Made by a program: the position numbers and the translations under genes
Notes under the pieces: generated by a model
Databases searched by the model: none
What the model saw: only the letters and a program-made list of their open reading frames with translations
Told to the model about the DNA's origin: nothing
NCBI GenBank assembly: GCA_903905455.1
Contig: CAIVGN010000072.1
Span: forward strand, 62,001 to 126,000
Direction of reading: 5' to 3'
DNA: 64,000 bases
From: an uncultured Archangium sp.
GTDB taxonomy: Bacteria; Myxococcota; Myxococcia; Myxococcales; Myxococcaceae
Shown here: positions 7,328 through 14,098 of the stretch, piece by piece
How positions within the stretch are numbered: the first letter of the stretch is position 1
Layout of the letters: every line of letters begins with the position of its first letter

Positions 7328-8866
7328 TTACTGCTGCGTCTTGAAGAGGTGGCAACCGATGCAGCTCGCGGGCGGCGTCGGGTGGTCCTTCTTGGGCAGC
7401 TTCTCGTGGCAGGTGATGCAGCTGGCCGGGCCGAAGCCGGGCTGCGGCAGGTGCGGCGCGTGACACGTCTTGCAGTCGCGGTGCTTCTCGACCGCGTGCA
7501 GGCCGGGCAGCGCCGGCGACGTGGGCGTCACGTGGCACTGCACGCAGGTCTTGAGCACCGTGGCCGAGTGGCTGGCGTGGCACGAGGCGCACTCCTTGTG
7601 ACCCTTCTGCGGCGGCACCTTCTTCTCGTGGCAGCTCAGGCAGGCCTTGGGAGCCGAACGCTCGCCGTGGGGCAGGCCCGCGTGGCAGTCGGCGCACTTC
7701 TGGTGGCCCTTGTTCTTCTTCACCGCGGTGGTCTGCACCTCGTGGCACTTGGCGCAGAGCACCTCGGCCTTCGGCTTGCCCCCGTGCGGCACGTGGCAGG
7801 CGTCACACGACGTCGTCGCCGCGTGCACCACGTCGTTGGTGAAGGGCGCCTTGTCGTGGCAGCTCACGCAGCTCTTCGCGATGGGCGCGTCGGCCGTCTT
7901 GGGGTGCGGCATGTGGCAGCCCGCGCACTTGAGGCCCGTGTCCTTCTGGGGCGGGTGCTTGAGGGCGGCGAGTTCCTTCTTGTGGCAGCTCTCGCAGCTC
8001 CGGGGCGCGGCGCGGTCGGCGTGCGGCTGGTGACACGAGATGCACTGCTTGTGCGAGTTGGGCGCGAGCACGTGCTGGGTGGTGTGACAGCCGGTGCAGG
8101 CCTTGACCGCGTCCTTCTGGAAGGTGTGCGCGGTGTGGCAGGTGCCGCAGCCCACGTGGCCCTTCTCGAAGAGCGCGCCGGGTGACACGCGGGCACGGGC
8201 CTCGATGTCGGGCTTGGTGTGGCAGGTCACGCACTTGCCGCTGGCGACGACCGCAGCGCTGTGGTGCGGGTGGCAGTTCATGCACTTCTCGGCGACGGTG
8301 TCGCCCTTGGCGCCGTGCTTGAGCGTCACGTCGTGGCAGGTGGTGCAGTCGGCGGCCTGGGTGAACGGCACCAGGTGCGGCCGGTGGCAGTTGTTGCAGC
8401 CCTCGACGTGCACGGTGATCGCCGGCTTGGCGCCCTTCACGCCCTGGTCCTGGGTGTGGCAGTTCATGCACGCCCACTTCTGGAAGCGGGCCGTGTCGGT
8501 GTCCGCGCGGAACACGTGGCAGGTCAGGCAGCCCATGGCCTCGCCGCCGTCGGCCATCACGCCGCCGTCGAAGGGGTGGTGCTGGGCCATCTGGTCCTTG
8601 TGGCACGAGGCGCACAGGTCCAGCGCGGGCGCGACGAAGCCGGCGTCAGCGATGGCGTGGCAGTCGTGGCACTCGAGCTTCTTCTCGCCGGTCAGCGAGA
8701 GGTGCTCCTTGTGCCCCGGCGTCATGCGCGCCGAGTGGTAGCTCCCCGGCACGGTGACGATGCCGCCGTCCTGCCGCGGCGGGATGAGGGTCTGGACCTT
8801 TTCCTTCACGTCTTCGCAGGCGCTCAAGCAGCTGACCGCCGCGAGCACCGCGAAGAGCTGCTTCAC
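7328..8866 (-). CDS. 23-heme c-type cytochrome, lipoprotein
   Basis: 512 residues from a GTG at 8866, preceded by a GGTGG-type ribosome site. A GTG at 8905 that overlaps the upstream stop is an alternative adding 13 residues. The signal peptide runs MKQLFAVLAAVSCLSAC with a lipobox LSAC, so the protein is lipid-anchored. I count 23 CXXCH heme motifs spread evenly from about residue 68 to the end, spaced 15-25 residues apart. Many extra His occur (HPHH, HH, TQHV) that can serve as distal ligands. There is no obvious catalytic domain, so the likely role is an electron wire in the periplasm or at the outer membrane. It is the last gene of the unit NapC-like, small membrane protein, this gene. 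Confidence 0.93.
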   Translation of the reverse strand: MKQLFAVLAAVSCLSACEDVKEKVQTLIPPRQDGGIVTVPGSYHSARMTPGHKEHLSLTGEKKLECHDCHAIADAGFVAPALDLCASCHKDQMAQHHPFDGGVMADGGEAMGCLTCHVFRADTDTARFQKWACMNCHTQDQGVKGAKPAITVHVEGCNNCHRPHLVPFTQAADCTTCHDVTLKHGAKGDTVAEKCMNCHPHHSAAVVASGKCVTCHTKPDIEARARVSPGALFEKGHVGCGTCHTAHTFQKDAVKACTGCHTTQHVLAPNSHKQCISCHQPHADRAAPRSCESCHKKELAALKHPPQKDTGLKCAGCHMPHPKTADAPIAKSCVSCHDKAPFTNDVVHAATTSCDACHVPHGGKPKAEVLCAKCHEVQTTAVKKNKGHQKCADCHAGLPHGERSAPKACLSCHEKKVPPQKGHKECASCHASHSATVLKTCVQCHVTPTSPALPGLHAVEKHRDCKTCHAPHLPQPGFGPASCITCHEKLPKKDHPTPPASCIGCHLFKTQQ

Positions 8867-8901
8867 CTGCACACCACCCACCGGCCGGGCACGAAACACG
8901 G

Positions 8902-9135
8902 TCACTGCTCCGGGCGCTTCGAAGCCACGTCGGCCGCGATGGACAAACCAAACAGCAAGCAGGCGAGCACGCCGATGCCCTGGGCGACGGACATCGAGGC
9001 CACCACGGGGAGCGGCGTGCCGAGCACGATGCCCGCGACCATGATGCCGAGGGCGATGAGGCCGAGGGCGCAGGCGACGAGCAGCGCGCGCTCCGAGGGC
9101 CAGCGGGCGAGCAGACGAAGAAAGCGGCGAACCAT
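8902..9135 (-). CDS. Small two-helix membrane protein
   Basis: 77 residues from ATG 9135, with a strong GAGGAG ribosome site that lies inside the end of the NapC-like gene (one-base gap between the genes). Two hydrophobic helices are seen (about residues 17-37 and 47-67), with a basic N-terminus and basic C-terminus. No family is recognised. Its position between a quinol-dehydrogenase-like cytochrome and a 23-heme lipoprotein suggests an accessory or assembly subunit of the same complex. Confidence 0.8.
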   Translation of the reverse strand: MVRRFLRLLARWPSERALLVACALGLIALGIMVAGIVLGTPLPVVASMSVAQGIGVLACLLFGLSIAADVASKRPEQ

Positions 9136-9136
9136 G

Positions 9137-9769
9137 TCAGAGCTCCTCAGGCCGTTTGCTGAACCGATGCGCCACGCCGTGACAGCCGGCCGACGCGCAC
9201 GAAACCTTGTTCGCCTCGAGCTCGTCGAGCACCGCGATGTGTTCGCGCACGTTCATGAACGACGCCAGCTTGCCCGAGTGGCAGGTGCGGCAGTTCGCGT
9301 TCGGGTACGGCTTGGCGATGCGCACTTCCTTGTGGAACTCCTCGAGGGGCATCTTGCGGTAGCCGCTGAAGTAGTAGTGGTAGACGTGCATCATCCCGGT
9401 GATCTTGGTCAGCGGGTACCCCAGCATCGAGTAGTCGGCGTGGCACGTGTAGCAAGCGTGCGGGCCCACGTGCTCGTTGCGCCCGTGGCGCGAGGCCAGC
9501 GAGATGCTGTTGGGGTCCTGGAGATCGCTGACGTGCGTCTCCATCACGTGGCACGAACCGCAGAACGTGGCCTCCGTGGTGCGCGCCATGCCCGACGCCG
9601 TGGTCGAGACCGCGGCGATGAAGGGGAAGACCGCCAGGCCCAGCAGCAGCTTGAGGCGCGTCGTGGCCTGCAACTTCGGCCGCACGACGAGGTGATGAAT
9701 CAAGAGCAACGCGGCAATGCCTGCAGAGGCAATCGCCAACGCACCAATCGGAGTCGCTGCACTTCCCAT
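9137..9769 (-). CDS. NapC/NirT/NrfH-like membrane-anchored tetraheme quinol dehydrogenase
   Basis: 210 residues. Two hydrophobic helices lie at the N-terminus (about 5-27 and 41-61), followed by a periplasmic heme domain. Heme motifs: CGSCHVM (the CXXCHxM form typical of heme 1 in NrfH/NapC), CYTCH, CRTCH, and a final CASAGCH that is CX4CH rather than CXXCH. Known members take electrons from menaquinol and hand them to periplasmic cytochromes. Here the obvious acceptor is the 23-heme lipoprotein two genes downstream. An AGGTGG ribosome site precedes ATG 9769. The second N-terminal helix and the CX4CH site are departures from the short NrfH form. Confidence 0.88.
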   Translation of the reverse strand: MGSAATPIGALAIASAGIAALLLIHHLVVRPKLQATTRLKLLLGLAVFPFIAAVSTTASGMARTTEATFCGSCHVMETHVSDLQDPNSISLASRHGRNEHVGPHACYTCHADYSMLGYPLTKITGMMHVYHYYFSGYRKMPLEEFHKEVRIAKPYPNANCRTCHSGKLASFMNVREHIAVLDELEANKVSCASAGCHGVAHRFSKRPEEL

Positions 9770-10035
9770 GACTCAGCCCACCTGGAGAGAAAGCTTGCTC
9801 AACACGGGTTCACCCCTCGTGACACACCACATCGACTTCCCGTCTCTACCTGAAGCCGTCGTCACGTCGCGATCAAAACGACTGCACGTCAGAGGCCACG
9901 GGGCTGTCGGTTAGTTCATCGTCTTCAGCCTCGCAAGAACTGCGCACTGAGAACCCGGCGCGTCAGATCTGCGTTGTTTCACTTGGATCATTCCAGCGTG
10001 GCGACCGCGCCCGAAGGTTGCTTACTTGCGACCCC
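9770..10035. promoter_or_regulatory. Divergent intergenic region of electron-transfer locus 1
   Basis: 266 bases without a gene separate the NapC-like unit (leftward) from the outer-membrane barrel unit (rightward). The segment is less GC-rich than the genes around it, as expected for promoters. I see no confident -35/-10 pair, sigma-54 box or long palindrome, so it is listed only as the region that must carry the control of both arms of the locus. Confidence 0.45.
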
Positions 10036-11394
10036 ATGTCACGCCTTCGTCATGCGCGCCTGTGGAGTGCGGCGCCCCTTGCTCTGTGTCTTGCTGCCAC
10101 GGCCCGCGCCGAGGAGCCCATGTGGGTGGACGCGCGCGTCTCCACGGTCGCCCAGTATTTTCAGCAGGGACTGGTGCCCGGACAGCCGGGTGTCGTCGCC
10201 CGCGTGGACACCGCGTTCCCCATCACCCTCGCGGCCTTCCTGCGCGTGGGGGCCATCGACCTGCCCGGCGCCGCTGACTCGGTGAGCGCCGAGGTCTCGG
10301 CCTGGGGCAGCGCCGGCCCGCGCAACGGCACCAACGCCGACGCCGACGTGACCGCGGCCTGGGCCCAGTACAAGAAGGGCATCGTGCGCGTGAAGTTGGG
10401 GCGCCAGGTGACGCTGCCGGGCTCGAGCCGCTTCGTGCGCTTCGACGGCGCGGCCGTGGGCGTGAGCCTCGGGTCCCTGGACCTCGACGGCTACTTCGGT
10501 TGGGTGGCCCTGCCGCGGTGGAACCTCGGGCGCGGCGCGACGCTGCTGGGCGCCATCGACCGGGACACCATCAAGGACCCGCTGCTGATGGAGGCGCAGA
10601 ACCGGGCCGGGCAGGTCACCGCCGGGGTGCGCATTGGCCTGCGGCTGCCGCTGCAGACCCGCGCGGCCCTCGCCTTTCACGAGCAGCACGACCTCACGGG
10701 CCCGGCCTTCCGGGTGCTCTCGGCCGACCTCGCCAGCCAGCCCCTCAAGTGGCTCGGCGCCGGCGCGCGGCTCTCGTTCGATCTCCAGGCCCTCGCGGTC
10801 TCGGAGGCGCGCGTGTGGTTCGACATCACCGCCCTGCCCCTGGTGCCGGTGGCCCTGGACTACTCGTTCCAGCAGCCCTCGTTGTTGTTGCCCCAGACCT
10901 CGGTGCTCGCGGCCTTCGGTGGCGCGTCGTGGCACGAGCTGGGCGCCGAGACGACGGTGCGCGCGCTGCCTTCGCTCAAGGTGACGGCCCGCGGCGCGGC
11001 CCAGCTGTTCCCCGGTGACCAGACCGGCGGGCGCGGCACGCTGCGCGCGGTGTGGACGCCCGACCTCGACGGCCGCTGGATGTTGCTGGGCGAAGTGCAG
11101 CGCGTGCTCGTGCCGACCTCGGGCTACTCGCAGCTGCGCGCCGGCGCGCGGTGGCGCGCGGCCCAGACGGTGACCGCGTCCATCGACGGGGCCGTCTTCT
11201 TCTATGACGTGCCGATTCACGGCGTGCCGCTCTCGGTGACCGGCATCGGCAGCGTCGAGTGGGCAGCCAAGCCGTGGCTGCGGGCGCTGCTCTCGGCGAC
11301 GGTGATGCGGACCCCCTATGCGGCCTTCGAGGCCCAGGGCCTGGCGCGCGTCATCTTCGAGCTCGACCCGGTCAGCTCGGGAGGTCGGCAGTGA
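10036..11394 (+). CDS. Predicted outer-membrane beta-barrel of a porin-cytochrome conduit
   Basis: 452 residues from ATG 10036. The signal peptide ends ATARA/EE. The mature protein is a succession of alternating-hydrophobicity strands with short turns (for example 'VRVKLGRQVTLPGSSRFVRFDGAAVGVSL'), almost no Cys, and no soluble domain, which fits a porin. Gene order (barrel, then two multiheme lipoproteins, all in one direction) matches the porin-cytochrome conduits known from Geobacter (OmbB-OmaB-OmcB) and Shewanella MtrCAB. Sequence similarity to those barrels cannot be judged by eye. The stop overlaps a GTG of the next frame, but the better start of the next gene is 48 bases further on. Confidence 0.72.
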   Translation: MSRLRHARLWSAAPLALCLAATARAEEPMWVDARVSTVAQYFQQGLVPGQPGVVARVDTAFPITLAAFLRVGAIDLPGAADSVSAEVSAWGSAGPRNGTNADADVTAAWAQYKKGIVRVKLGRQVTLPGSSRFVRFDGAAVGVSLGSLDLDGYFGWVALPRWNLGRGATLLGAIDRDTIKDPLLMEAQNRAGQVTAGVRIGLRLPLQTRAALAFHEQHDLTGPAFRVLSADLASQPLKWLGAGARLSFDLQALAVSEARVWFDITALPLVPVALDYSFQQPSLLLPQTSVLAAFGGASWHELGAETTVRALPSLKVTARGAAQLFPGDQTGGRGTLRAVWTPDLDGRWMLLGEVQRVLVPTSGYSQLRAGARWRAAQTVTASIDGAVFFYDVPIHGVPLSVTGIGSVEWAAKPWLRALLSATVMRTPYAAFEAQGLARVIFELDPVSSGGRQ

Positions 11395-11441
11395 AGCCCG
11401 TGATGCGTGACAGCAAGGTGGGCTCCGTGGCAGGGGGCGGT

Positions 11442-12494
11442 ATGCGTTGGCTTTTCCTGCCGGTGGCGCTTCTCCTCCTCGGCGGCTGCGACCGCGGCCT
11501 GTTGACCCACTTTCCCCACCGCACGCACCTCGCGAAGATCGAGTGCGGCGGGCCCGGCCAGCCCCAGTGCCTGTCGTGCATCAGCTGCCACCAGGGCGAC
11601 ACCACCAAGCATGACGCCTGGGCCCAGCCGACCGCGCAGAGCTGCGCTGGCTGCCACCAGGACAAGAACACCGACGAGCTGTGGCAGCACTCGGTGCGCC
11701 CGGCCCTGGCCACCCTGCCCGCGGGAAAGAGCATCGTCTTCTCGCACGAGAACCACCTGAAGAAGGAAGGGCTCAAGGGCCAGTGCGTGAAGTGCCACGC
11801 CGGCGCCGTGGGCGTCGAAGGCGGCGCCCCGCTCTTCCCGCCCATGGAGACCTGCCTCGGGTGCCACGAGCACCGCGAGCAGTTCGAGACCAACACCTGC
11901 ACCAACTGCCACAAGACCAGGGACCTCCGCGGCCTGCAGCCGCAGTCGTTCCTCCCGCACGACGCGGTGTGGATCCGCCGGCACGGCGGCGAAGCGCGGG
12001 CCAACCCCGAGCGTTGCGCCACCTGCCACGCGCAGACCAACTGCGACACCTGCCACGACTCGAGCAAGCCCCTGGGCCCGGCGACCCGCAACCCCGAGGC
12101 GCTCGAGGCCAACTACGTGCACCGCTTCGACTTCCTCTCGCGGCACCCCATGGAGGCCCGCTCGCAGCCCGGCCAGTGCGCGACCTGCCACGCCAAGACC
12201 GAGTGCGACGCCTGCCACATCAGCCGCGGCGTCTCTGGCGCCGTCGCGGGCGGCCCCAGCCCGCACCCGCTCGCCTGGGCCAGCGGCCTGGGCACCGCGG
12301 CCAACCTGCACGGCCCGGCCGCGCGGCGGGACATCGGCTCCTGCGCCTCGTGCCACGACCAGGGCGCGGCGACGAACTGCGTGCGCTGCCACAAGGTGGG
12401 CGCCACCGGCGGCACGCCCCACCCCACGGGCTGGCGCAGCACCCAACCCACCACGGCCATCGAATGCGCCGTGTGCCACGGAGGTATGCCGTGA
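11442..12494 (+). CDS. 12-heme c-type cytochrome, lipoprotein
   Basis: 350 residues. ATG 11442 is chosen because it directly follows a GGGGGCGG ribosome site and opens a standard signal peptide MRWLFLPVALLLLGGC with lipobox LGGC; in-frame GTG 11391 and ATG 11403 are longer options. I count 12 CXXCH motifs. In several places two motifs lie 8-12 residues apart (CATCHAQTNCDTCH twice, CASCH…CVRCH), which resembles octa/decaheme cytochromes of the DmsE/MtrA type. It probably sits in or beneath the barrel encoded just upstream, accepting periplasmic electrons. It overlaps the next gene by GTGA. Confidence 0.92.
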   Translation: MRWLFLPVALLLLGGCDRGLLTHFPHRTHLAKIECGGPGQPQCLSCISCHQGDTTKHDAWAQPTAQSCAGCHQDKNTDELWQHSVRPALATLPAGKSIVFSHENHLKKEGLKGQCVKCHAGAVGVEGGAPLFPPMETCLGCHEHREQFETNTCTNCHKTRDLRGLQPQSFLPHDAVWIRRHGGEARANPERCATCHAQTNCDTCHDSSKPLGPATRNPEALEANYVHRFDFLSRHPMEARSQPGQCATCHAKTECDACHISRGVSGAVAGGPSPHPLAWASGLGTAANLHGPAARRDIGSCASCHDQGAATNCVRCHKVGATGGTPHPTGWRSTQPTTAIECAVCHGGMP

Positions 12495-14098
12495 GCGCGC
12501 TCCGCTTCACGCTGTTGGGCGGGCTCGTGCTGGCCGCCTCGGGCTGTTTCATTCCCCAGGACACGTCGGTCGTTCCCGGTGACCGCGCCTGCACGCGCTG
12601 CCACGGCGACCCGAGCCGCGAGGGCACGGTGGAGCAACGGGCGGCCCCGCCGTTCGACCGCTTCGGCAACACCGGCACCCAGTTCCGCGGGGTCGGCGCG
12701 CACGAGCGGCACCTGCTCGCGGGCCCGACGCACGCGGCCATCGCCTGCACCGAGTGCCACCGCATTCCCACCACCGCCCAGGACGACGGGCACAACGTGG
12801 GCATCACGGCCTTCGAGTTCGGCCCCCTGGCGAAGGGCGACGGCGGCATCGTCGCCGCCTGGGACGCCAAGACCCTGCGCTGCACCAACGCCTGCCACCA
12901 GGGCGAGTCCACCCAGTGGACGGCGCAGCACCCCCAGGAGCTGACCTGCGGCACCTGCCACACCCTGCCCCCGAAGGCTCCGCACCCCCAGGCGGGCAAC
13001 TGCGCCGTGTGTCACGCCGACGTGGTCGCGGCCGACGGCGGCATCATCGCGCCCGAGCTGCACGTCAACGGCAGCGTGCAGGTCAGCCAGGTCGCCTGCA
13101 ACGCGTGCCACGGCACCGATGACGGCGGCGCGCCTCCCCGCGCGGTCGACGGCAGCACCGAGCGCACCGCCGTCGGCGTCGGCGCCCACGCGCTGCACCT
13201 CGCCGGTGGCAGCAAGACGAAGCCGGTGGCCTGCGCCACCTGTCACCTCGTGCCCGCGTCCATCCGCGACCCGAAGCACGCCAACGGGGGCCGCGCAGAG
13301 GTGTCGCGCGCCGTCGGTTGGAACACCGCCACCGTCAGCTGCACCAACGGCTGCCACGGCAGCGTGACCCCCGACGGCGGGCTGACCGCCCTCGTCTCGC
13401 CCGAGTGGACCACGCTCGACGCGGGCCTTGGCTGCTCGAGCTGCCACGGCGCGCCCCCGGCGCTCCCGCACCCGCAGGTCACCAACTGCGCGCTGTGTCA
13501 CCCCAACGCGACCGGCCCCCTGGGTCGTGACGTGGTCAACCGCGAGCTGCACGTCAACGGCACCGTCGAGCAGGGCATGCCCACCACCTGTGATGGCTGC
13601 CACGGCATGAACGGCAACTTCGCGCCTCCGCGCGACACCCTGGGCAACACGGCCACCACCTTCCCCGGCGTCGGCGCCCACCAGGCCCACGTCGTCGGCC
13701 GCGGGATGGCGCGCGTGGTCCAGTGCAACGAGTGCCACGTGGTCCCGGCGCAGATCCTGGCGACCAACCACCCCAACGGCACCAACGAGGTGCGCTTCAC
13801 GGGCATGGCCACCATCAACAACGTGCCCAGCTACCAGAACGGCACCTGCAGCGTGGGTTGCCACAACGTGGCGAACATCACCGAGGCCCCCGGCGGTGGC
13901 ACCGCGACCTCGCCCCAGTGGACGCTGGTCGACGGCTCGCAGGCCACCTGCACCTCGTGTCACGGCCTGCCGCCCCCGCTGCCGCACCCCCAGCAGCAGG
14001 ACTGCGCGTCGTGCCACCTCAACATCACGGCCGCGCGCACCTTCATTCAGCCCGAGAAGCACGTGAACGGCACGGTGGAGTTCATCTTCCGCCCGTGA
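12491..14098 (+). CDS. 15-heme lipoprotein cytochrome built of three pentaheme modules
   Basis: 535 residues from GTG 12491, preceded by a full GGAGGT ribosome site; it overlaps the 12-heme gene by four bases. The signal peptide ends LAASGC, so this is a lipoprotein. The chain is three copies of one module (about residues 34-175, 204-338 and 368-510). Each has the order CXXCH, CXXCH, CX3CH, CXXCH, CXXCH and ends with 'HVNG(S/T)V'. The third site of every module is CX3CH (CTNACH, CTNGCH, CSVGCH). Geobacter proteins with mixed CXXCH and longer CXnCH sites are known. As the last gene of the barrel unit it is a good candidate for the cell-surface terminal reductase or contact cytochrome. Confidence 0.9.
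   Translation: MSALRFTLLGGLVLAASGCFIPQDTSVVPGDRACTRCHGDPSREGTVEQRAAPPFDRFGNTGTQFRGVGAHERHLLAGPTHAAIACTECHRIPTTAQDDGHNVGITAFEFGPLAKGDGGIVAAWDAKTLRCTNACHQGESTQWTAQHPQELTCGTCHTLPPKAPHPQAGNCAVCHADVVAADGGIIAPELHVNGSVQVSQVACNACHGTDDGGAPPRAVDGSTERTAVGVGAHALHLAGGSKTKPVACATCHLVPASIRDPKHANGGRAEVSRAVGWNTATVSCTNGCHGSVTPDGGLTALVSPEWTTLDAGLGCSSCHGAPPALPHPQVTNCALCHPNATGPLGRDVVNRELHVNGTVEQGMPTTCDGCHGMNGNFAPPRDTLGNTATTFPGVGAHQAHVVGRGMARVVQCNECHVVPAQILATNHPNGTNEVRFTGMATINNVPSYQNGTCSVGCHNVANITEAPGGGTATSPQWTLVDGSQATCTSCHGLPPPLPHPQQQDCASCHLNITAARTFIQPEKHVNGTVEFIFRP

Follow-up and report, generated by a model that had tools for sequence, protein, structure and literature searches.

The porins of Pcc conduits are described as having 18–22 strands (PMC4245776). 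The two-gene Pcc clusters of Anaeromyxobacter (Shi et al. 2014, PMC4245776) encode a periplasmic partner of 338–344 aa with 12–14 hemes and are reported to have no outer-membrane cytochrome next to them. The same paper reports outer-membrane cytochromes of the Pcc type with CX3-4CH motifs and, with reference to Stevens 2004, ascribes covalent heme binding to these motifs (PMC4245776). Two other papers include CX3CH and CX4CH in their heme-motif counts (PMC5566968, PMC10734462), and a third describes a CX3CH in ImcH (PMC6295460). The five-heme module, the conduit logic and the CX3/CX4 motifs considered below are already known. In open papers, with the terms tried, we found no description of a three-module protein in Myxococcota or of a series leading from CX4CH (X4) to CX3CH (X3); literature searches for TIGR01904, for PF09698 and for CX4CH together with ‘covalent’ also returned nothing.

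We analysed a 64,000-nt stretch of DNA (the window) from an uncultured Archangium sp., in which a gene for a 15-heme cytochrome (12491..14098, plus strand) is the last of a same-strand operon with the order porin, 12-heme cytochrome, 15-heme cytochrome. The porin (10036..11394, plus strand; 452 aa, start codon uncertain) is a predicted 22-strand beta-barrel; its AF2 model (pLDDT 78.7, pTM 0.71) aligns lengthwise with 22-strand receptors (Z up to 19.2, rmsd 3.7 over 354). It matched no Pfam or NCBIfam family, and MtrB is absent among the matches listed for the model, an absence that excludes nothing. The second gene (11391..12494, plus strand; 367 aa as read, start codon uncertain) encodes a predicted lipoprotein in which all 12 of the 12 motifs are CXXCH, with a match to PF22113 (47.4 bits vs cut-off 30). 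The GTG start of the 15-heme gene overlaps the TGA of this upstream gene. The 535-aa product is likewise a predicted lipoprotein: it contains LAASGC, which we take to be a lipobox-like motif ending at Cys19, and this cysteine is invariant in the alignments of nine and of 25 orthologs described below.

Two further cytochrome genes lie on the minus strand. A NapC/NrfH-like tetraheme cytochrome (9137..9769; PF03264, 48.5 bits vs 24.1) is divergent from the operon; it has three CXXCH and one CX4CH (CASAGCH), and the latter is identical in six orthologs (L076, L078, L079, L081, L082 and L083). A 23-heme cytochrome, also a predicted lipoprotein (7328..8905; start codon uncertain), contains 23 CXXCH motifs and matches PF14537 (65.4 bits); it has repeated matches to Cytochrom_c3_2 and Cytochrome_C7 and is conserved beside the conduit operon.

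The 15-heme cytochrome is real. Reading of the ORF and its motifs confirmed what the first-pass annotation had proposed: 15 heme motifs (12 CXXCH and three CX3CH) in three five-heme modules, the CX3CH being the third motif of each. On the plus strand, module 1 (residues 29–196; 12575..13078) has the order CTRCH, CTECH, CTNACH, CGTCH, CAVCH; module 2 (residues 197–359; 13079..13567) has CNACH, CATCH, CTNGCH, CSSCH, CALCH; and module 3 (residues 360–529; 13568..14077) has CDGCH, CNECH, CSVGCH, CTSCH, CASCH. The expanded sites start at residues 131 (CTNACH; 12881..12898), 284 (CTNGCH; 13340..13357) and 453 (CSVGCH; 13847..13864), all on the plus strand, and HVNG occurs at residues 191, 354 and 524. 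The modules (168, 163 and 170 residues) align over their full length, as was to be checked, with pairwise identity of 40–44%, and pairwise z-scores against shuffled sequences are 12.5, 13.5 and 15.7. In the shuffles the heme Cys/Cys/His were kept fixed and the remaining residues were permuted 1000 times; this control rules out an artefact of motif counting as the source of the module likeness. A triplication is thus directly readable, as three homologous modules with the expanded site at the same heme. A structure prediction, another check suggested at first pass, did yield an AF2 model of the 15-heme protein, but a poor one (pLDDT 60.2, pTM 0.40); searches with it for a fold match gave no matches in Foldseek and two chains in VIA-align, neither with Z 2. 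Sequence searches of the PDB with the protein returned nothing convincing.

TIGR01904 (NCBIfam, CxxxxCH/CxxCH domain c-type cytochrome) matched three stretches of the 15-heme protein, with E 6.3e-24 and 83.5 bits for the whole protein against a curated cut-off of 27. When the modules are scored singly within the genome, this cut-off is passed by module 2 (35.6 bits) and module 3 (44.6 bits), and module 1 falls under it (24.0 bits). The shorter Pfam relative PF09698 reaches 14.9 bits in the protein, under its gathering score of 21.7; elsewhere in the genome it has four matches, of 36.5 to 24.2 bits. By curated cut-off the protein is filed under TIGR01904 and not under PF09698. It has the same repeating module as TIGR01904, but its third sites are all X3, which departs from the literal CX4CH of the family name. 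X3 sites also occur elsewhere in this genome, in proteins that exceed the cut-off; contigs C11, C45 and C160 encode three more multi-module proteins, with third sites of the form CXXYCH (X3) or CXXXYCH (X4). These own-genome paralogs (L001–L020) were read by eye and stand outside the module counts given below. The frame on contig C11 (L006, L018 of genome G000) is 1391 aa long with at least six modules, and is followed by a nearby cytochrome ORF with paired CXXCH motifs. The domain is present in 68 of the 195 Myxococcota genomes searched.

Matched against 60 relatives, the 15-heme query found 27 at E 1e-20, mostly through other multi-module proteins, and several genomes of the family are without a 15-heme gene. 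We counted as orthologs those proteins that sit beside a porin relative and have three modules, no more and no fewer, which gave 25 (the window, L096–L116, L118, L119 and L122). This left out several loci that do adjoin porin and 12-heme relatives: L117 and L126 (four modules), L121 and L124 (seven modules), L155 and L161 (two modules), L137 (three modules in a different gene order) and the one- or two-module proteins of L084–L089, L095 and L173. The first-pass annotation had advised looking for single-module relatives; in L084–L089 and L095, one- and two-module proteins stand beside porin and 12-/13-heme relatives. Relatives of the porin and the 12-heme protein lie upstream of the 15-heme gene in all 24 named orthologs; in 22 of them the order is strict and the matches are separate, and in L096 and L098 the matches run into one another by a few bases. 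At the same loci, some of which end at contig ends, we found relatives of the tetraheme protein in 17 of 24 and of the 23-heme protein in 20 of 24.

Writing the number of residues at the third site of modules 1 to 3 as three digits, the window is 333, and eight related genomes with an orthologous operon have 334 (three genomes), 433 (two) and 434 (three). Across the 25 orthologs the pattern is 444 in 12, 434 in six, 334 in three, 433 in three and 333 in the window alone, so that the third slot is expanded, to three or four residues, in 75 of 75 modules. On the ortholog tree, the CX3CH state requires one change in module 1, two in module 2 and two in module 3. In a tree of these 75 modules with 18 from other proteins (a quick tree with SH-aLRT support only), modules 1 and modules 2 form one group each (SH-aLRT 94 and 95, respectively), and module 3 needs two changes. 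Since modules group by position across the 25 orthologs, the triplication is older than the lineage. Because 444 rows fall to either side of the midpoint root, it is simplest to assume an ancestor with X4 throughout; that root serves for drawing only, and the X4-to-X3 direction is an inference backed by how common X4 is elsewhere. The comparison favours a triplicated ancestor with X4 in every module, followed by separate, later shortening in each. The site of exactly three residues would then be recent, and what appears to have been kept is the expanded state. The earlier idea that CX3CH itself was kept through triplication was rejected on the ortholog patterns, the change counts and the module tree: CX4CH occupies every third site in 12 of the 25 orthologs, and the changes to CX3CH are separate in each.

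The candidate ligand residues are strongly conserved. In an alignment of nine orthologs 30 His are invariant, namely the 15 motif His and 15 others, five per module: two in GAHxxH, and one each in an HxxG at mid-module, in PPxxPH and in the closing HVNG or HVDG. In 25 orthologs 29 of these 30 remain invariant, with H499 nearly so. The HVNG/HVDG His is most simply read as the distal ligand of one heme. With five other conserved His per module available as distal ligands, all 15 hemes, those at CX3CH included, are probably bis-His; they would be six-coordinate wire hemes and not catalytic. Multiheme proteins can be enzymes, and an extracellular reductase of a particular substrate would be the corresponding alternative to a wire. 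We regard it as very improbable: a conserved candidate distal His for every motif (15 and 15) leaves no obvious open site, and no catalytic family was matched by the protein in Pfam or NCBIfam. Two further features do not vary among the 25 orthologs: a Trp located between hemes 3 and 4 (W143, W306 and W477), and the two Cys and the His of the third site in every module.

To survey the third site more widely, we used a module profile that gave 498 matches, of which 468 cover more than 75% of the profile and 431 are distinct. The counts took in loci L076–L174 and the window (the named-genome scan gave 79 loci), that is, Myxococcota and one MAG labelled Bacteroidetes (L157). In the 431 modules the third site is CX4CH in 363 and CX3CH in 66, with two modules having neither and none having CXXCH; X3 is thus a minority state in TIGR01904-type modules. 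The second site is CXXCH in all 431, and the fourth is X2 in 364 and X3 in 67. Thinning of the relatives to 248 representatives left 209 X4, 38 X3 and one other at the third site. As a control for bias, we searched with a profile in which CXXCH was imposed on site 3; of its 432 distinct matches one had CXXCH, and this was the 23-heme neighbour in L114 and no module, so that a true CXXCH module was not found with this profile. Four further matches read in that run as having no motif are alignment-shifted CX4CH sites, save L144, where a Cys is lost. The rule at the third site is therefore ‘expanded’, and not ‘exactly three’. The new observation is that an expanded site has so far been obligatory at this heme and its length has not.

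An expanded fourth site is seen in other lineages. CX3CH at this position (e.g. CGASCH) mostly accompanies a CX4CH third site; L092, L129 and L143 are among the multi-module examples. Very long frames were also seen (L120, of 2959 aa, L172, L145, L146 and L123), with 13 to 16 consecutive five-heme modules, which implies up to ∼80 heme sites per protein.

The two modules with neither X3 nor X4 have each lost a third-site Cys. In the first module of L144 (7932-10748) the site reads CAGTYGH, with the second Cys gone, which makes it a candidate natural example of a module binding four hemes covalently; the L157 module is without the first Cys. The L157 frame (7791-10418) has four modules beside a 12-heme relative on a contig labelled as a Bacteroidetes MAG, pointing to interphylum transfer or a mislabelled bin. 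Such losses are what could be cited for heme-free CX3CH sites, with 12 hemes in the window protein. To that reading we give hardly any credence, as the two Cys and the His show no variation in any module of the 25 orthologs, CX3-4CH is reported in the Pcc paper as a covalent heme binder (PMC4245776) and CX3CH occurs in ImcH-type cytochromes. The 15-heme reading is retained below. A search with one family, PF01578, indicated a single cytochrome c maturation set in the genome (two matches, one contig), a weak indication that there is no dedicated lyase for the expanded sites.

The lack of CXXCH at the third site of the surveyed modules fits some constraint, of a kind that the counts leave unspecified. 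A possible, still tentative proposal is that the third heme needs an expanded loop for module folding or conduction, the choice between three and four residues being nearly neutral. If so, orthologs with 444, 434, 334/433 and 333 make up a natural deletion series, each module losing one residue at a different time, and the purpose of the expanded site becomes testable with matched natural proteins. The first-pass annotation had suggested that the CX3CH heme has a special geometry or redox potential, which the AF2 model is too poor to show. In a broader form of this idea the CX3CH heme is functionally special (an unusual potential, an exit heme or a partner contact) and the expanded site is selected for this. 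Both the complete lack of CXXCH in the 431 modules and the invariant Trp between hemes 3 and 4 would agree with a special heme; yet the length shifts freely between 3 and 4 even inside one protein (94 distinct ORFs carry at least two modules, with X4 throughout in 55, a mixture in 35 and X3 throughout in four, the window protein being one of them), and neither the motif His nor the five further His in each module differ in conservation from those elsewhere, so that the ligands are not marked as unusual. We consider a special heme possible but doubtful.

For the operon as a whole we built on what was computed, namely module homology, family, His conservation, operon conservation, the barrel prediction and the X3/X4 history, and from these we infer heme attachment, surface location, complex formation, direction and function. 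The 15-heme protein is likely to serve as the outer cytochrome, probably exposed on the cell surface, of a Pcc conduit taking electrons across the outer membrane. Points against this reading are the poor model of the 15-heme protein and the absence of its gene from several genomes of the family. In the proposed scheme the NapC/NrfH-like tetraheme protein would oxidise quinol and the periplasm would be crossed via the 23-heme cytochrome. The 12-heme cytochrome would plug the 22-strand barrel and carry electrons through the membrane, and the 15-heme protein would lengthen the chain outside and deliver them to an acceptor, whether mineral, humic or other. Its third attachment sites would have to exceed CXXCH, with three or four residues interchangeable.

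The 12-, 15- and 23-heme proteins are all lipoprotein-like, and lipoprotein signals do not distinguish an inside from an outside position. This permits an arrangement in which the 15-heme lipoprotein sits on the inner leaflet of the outer membrane as a periplasmic wire or store, buffering or ferrying electrons between the 23-heme and 12-heme proteins, and the separate 23-heme lipoprotein nearby would suit it. We find it unlikely: the order porin, 12-heme, 15-heme matches Pcc clusters that include an outer-membrane cytochrome, and Anaeromyxobacter-type genomes have the porin and 12-heme pair in clusters reported to be without an adjoining outer-membrane cytochrome, as expected if the latter is an add-on on the outside.

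With an outer 15-heme cytochrome as the preferred reading, a predicted electron-export operon is now present in Myxococcota beyond Anaeromyxobacter-type genomes. Orthologous modules with X3 and X4 at the same heme provide matched natural pairs for probing expanded heme-attachment sites. The surprise is moderate, given that both the domain family and the conduit logic were known.

Among known systems the window operon resembles Pcc (OmbB-OmaB-OmcB type; Group IV pairs of Anaeromyxobacter), with which it has in common the porin, an adjacent multiheme partner and a putative outer cytochrome with typical and CX3-4CH motifs. The 22 predicted strands, supported by full-length barrel matches, fall in the Pcc range of 18–22; the adjacent partner, with 12 CXXCH, falls in the range of 5–14 hemes, and its location is presumably periplasmic; and the putative outer cytochrome has the invariant lipobox Cys19 and 15 motifs. 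This likeness is drawn through the Anaeromyxobacter-type pairs and not through BLAST to OmaB/OmbB/OmcB, the criterion of Shi 2014. In Anaeromyxobacter-type genomes the porin and 12-heme relatives lie side by side (in G045 at 3954476-3955606 and 3955774-3956667), the latter having ∼344 residues and 12 motifs; these appear to correspond to the reported Pcc pairs, going by their size, number of hemes and position and not by accession numbers. The Group IV pairs consist of two genes, whereas the window operon adds a third, the 15-heme gene. Mtr (MtrCAB) follows the same logic of porin, inner and outer cytochrome, and the PF22113 family matched over cut-off by the window 12-heme protein is MtrC/MtrF domain II/IV; however, Mtr has a 28-strand porin with 10 and 10 hemes, compared with 22 strands and 12 and 15 hemes in the window. 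PCC3 of iron oxidisers likewise joins a porin with repeat-rich multiheme proteins, but He 2017 gives it median heme counts of 34 and 21 and an adjacent five-helix inner-membrane protein.
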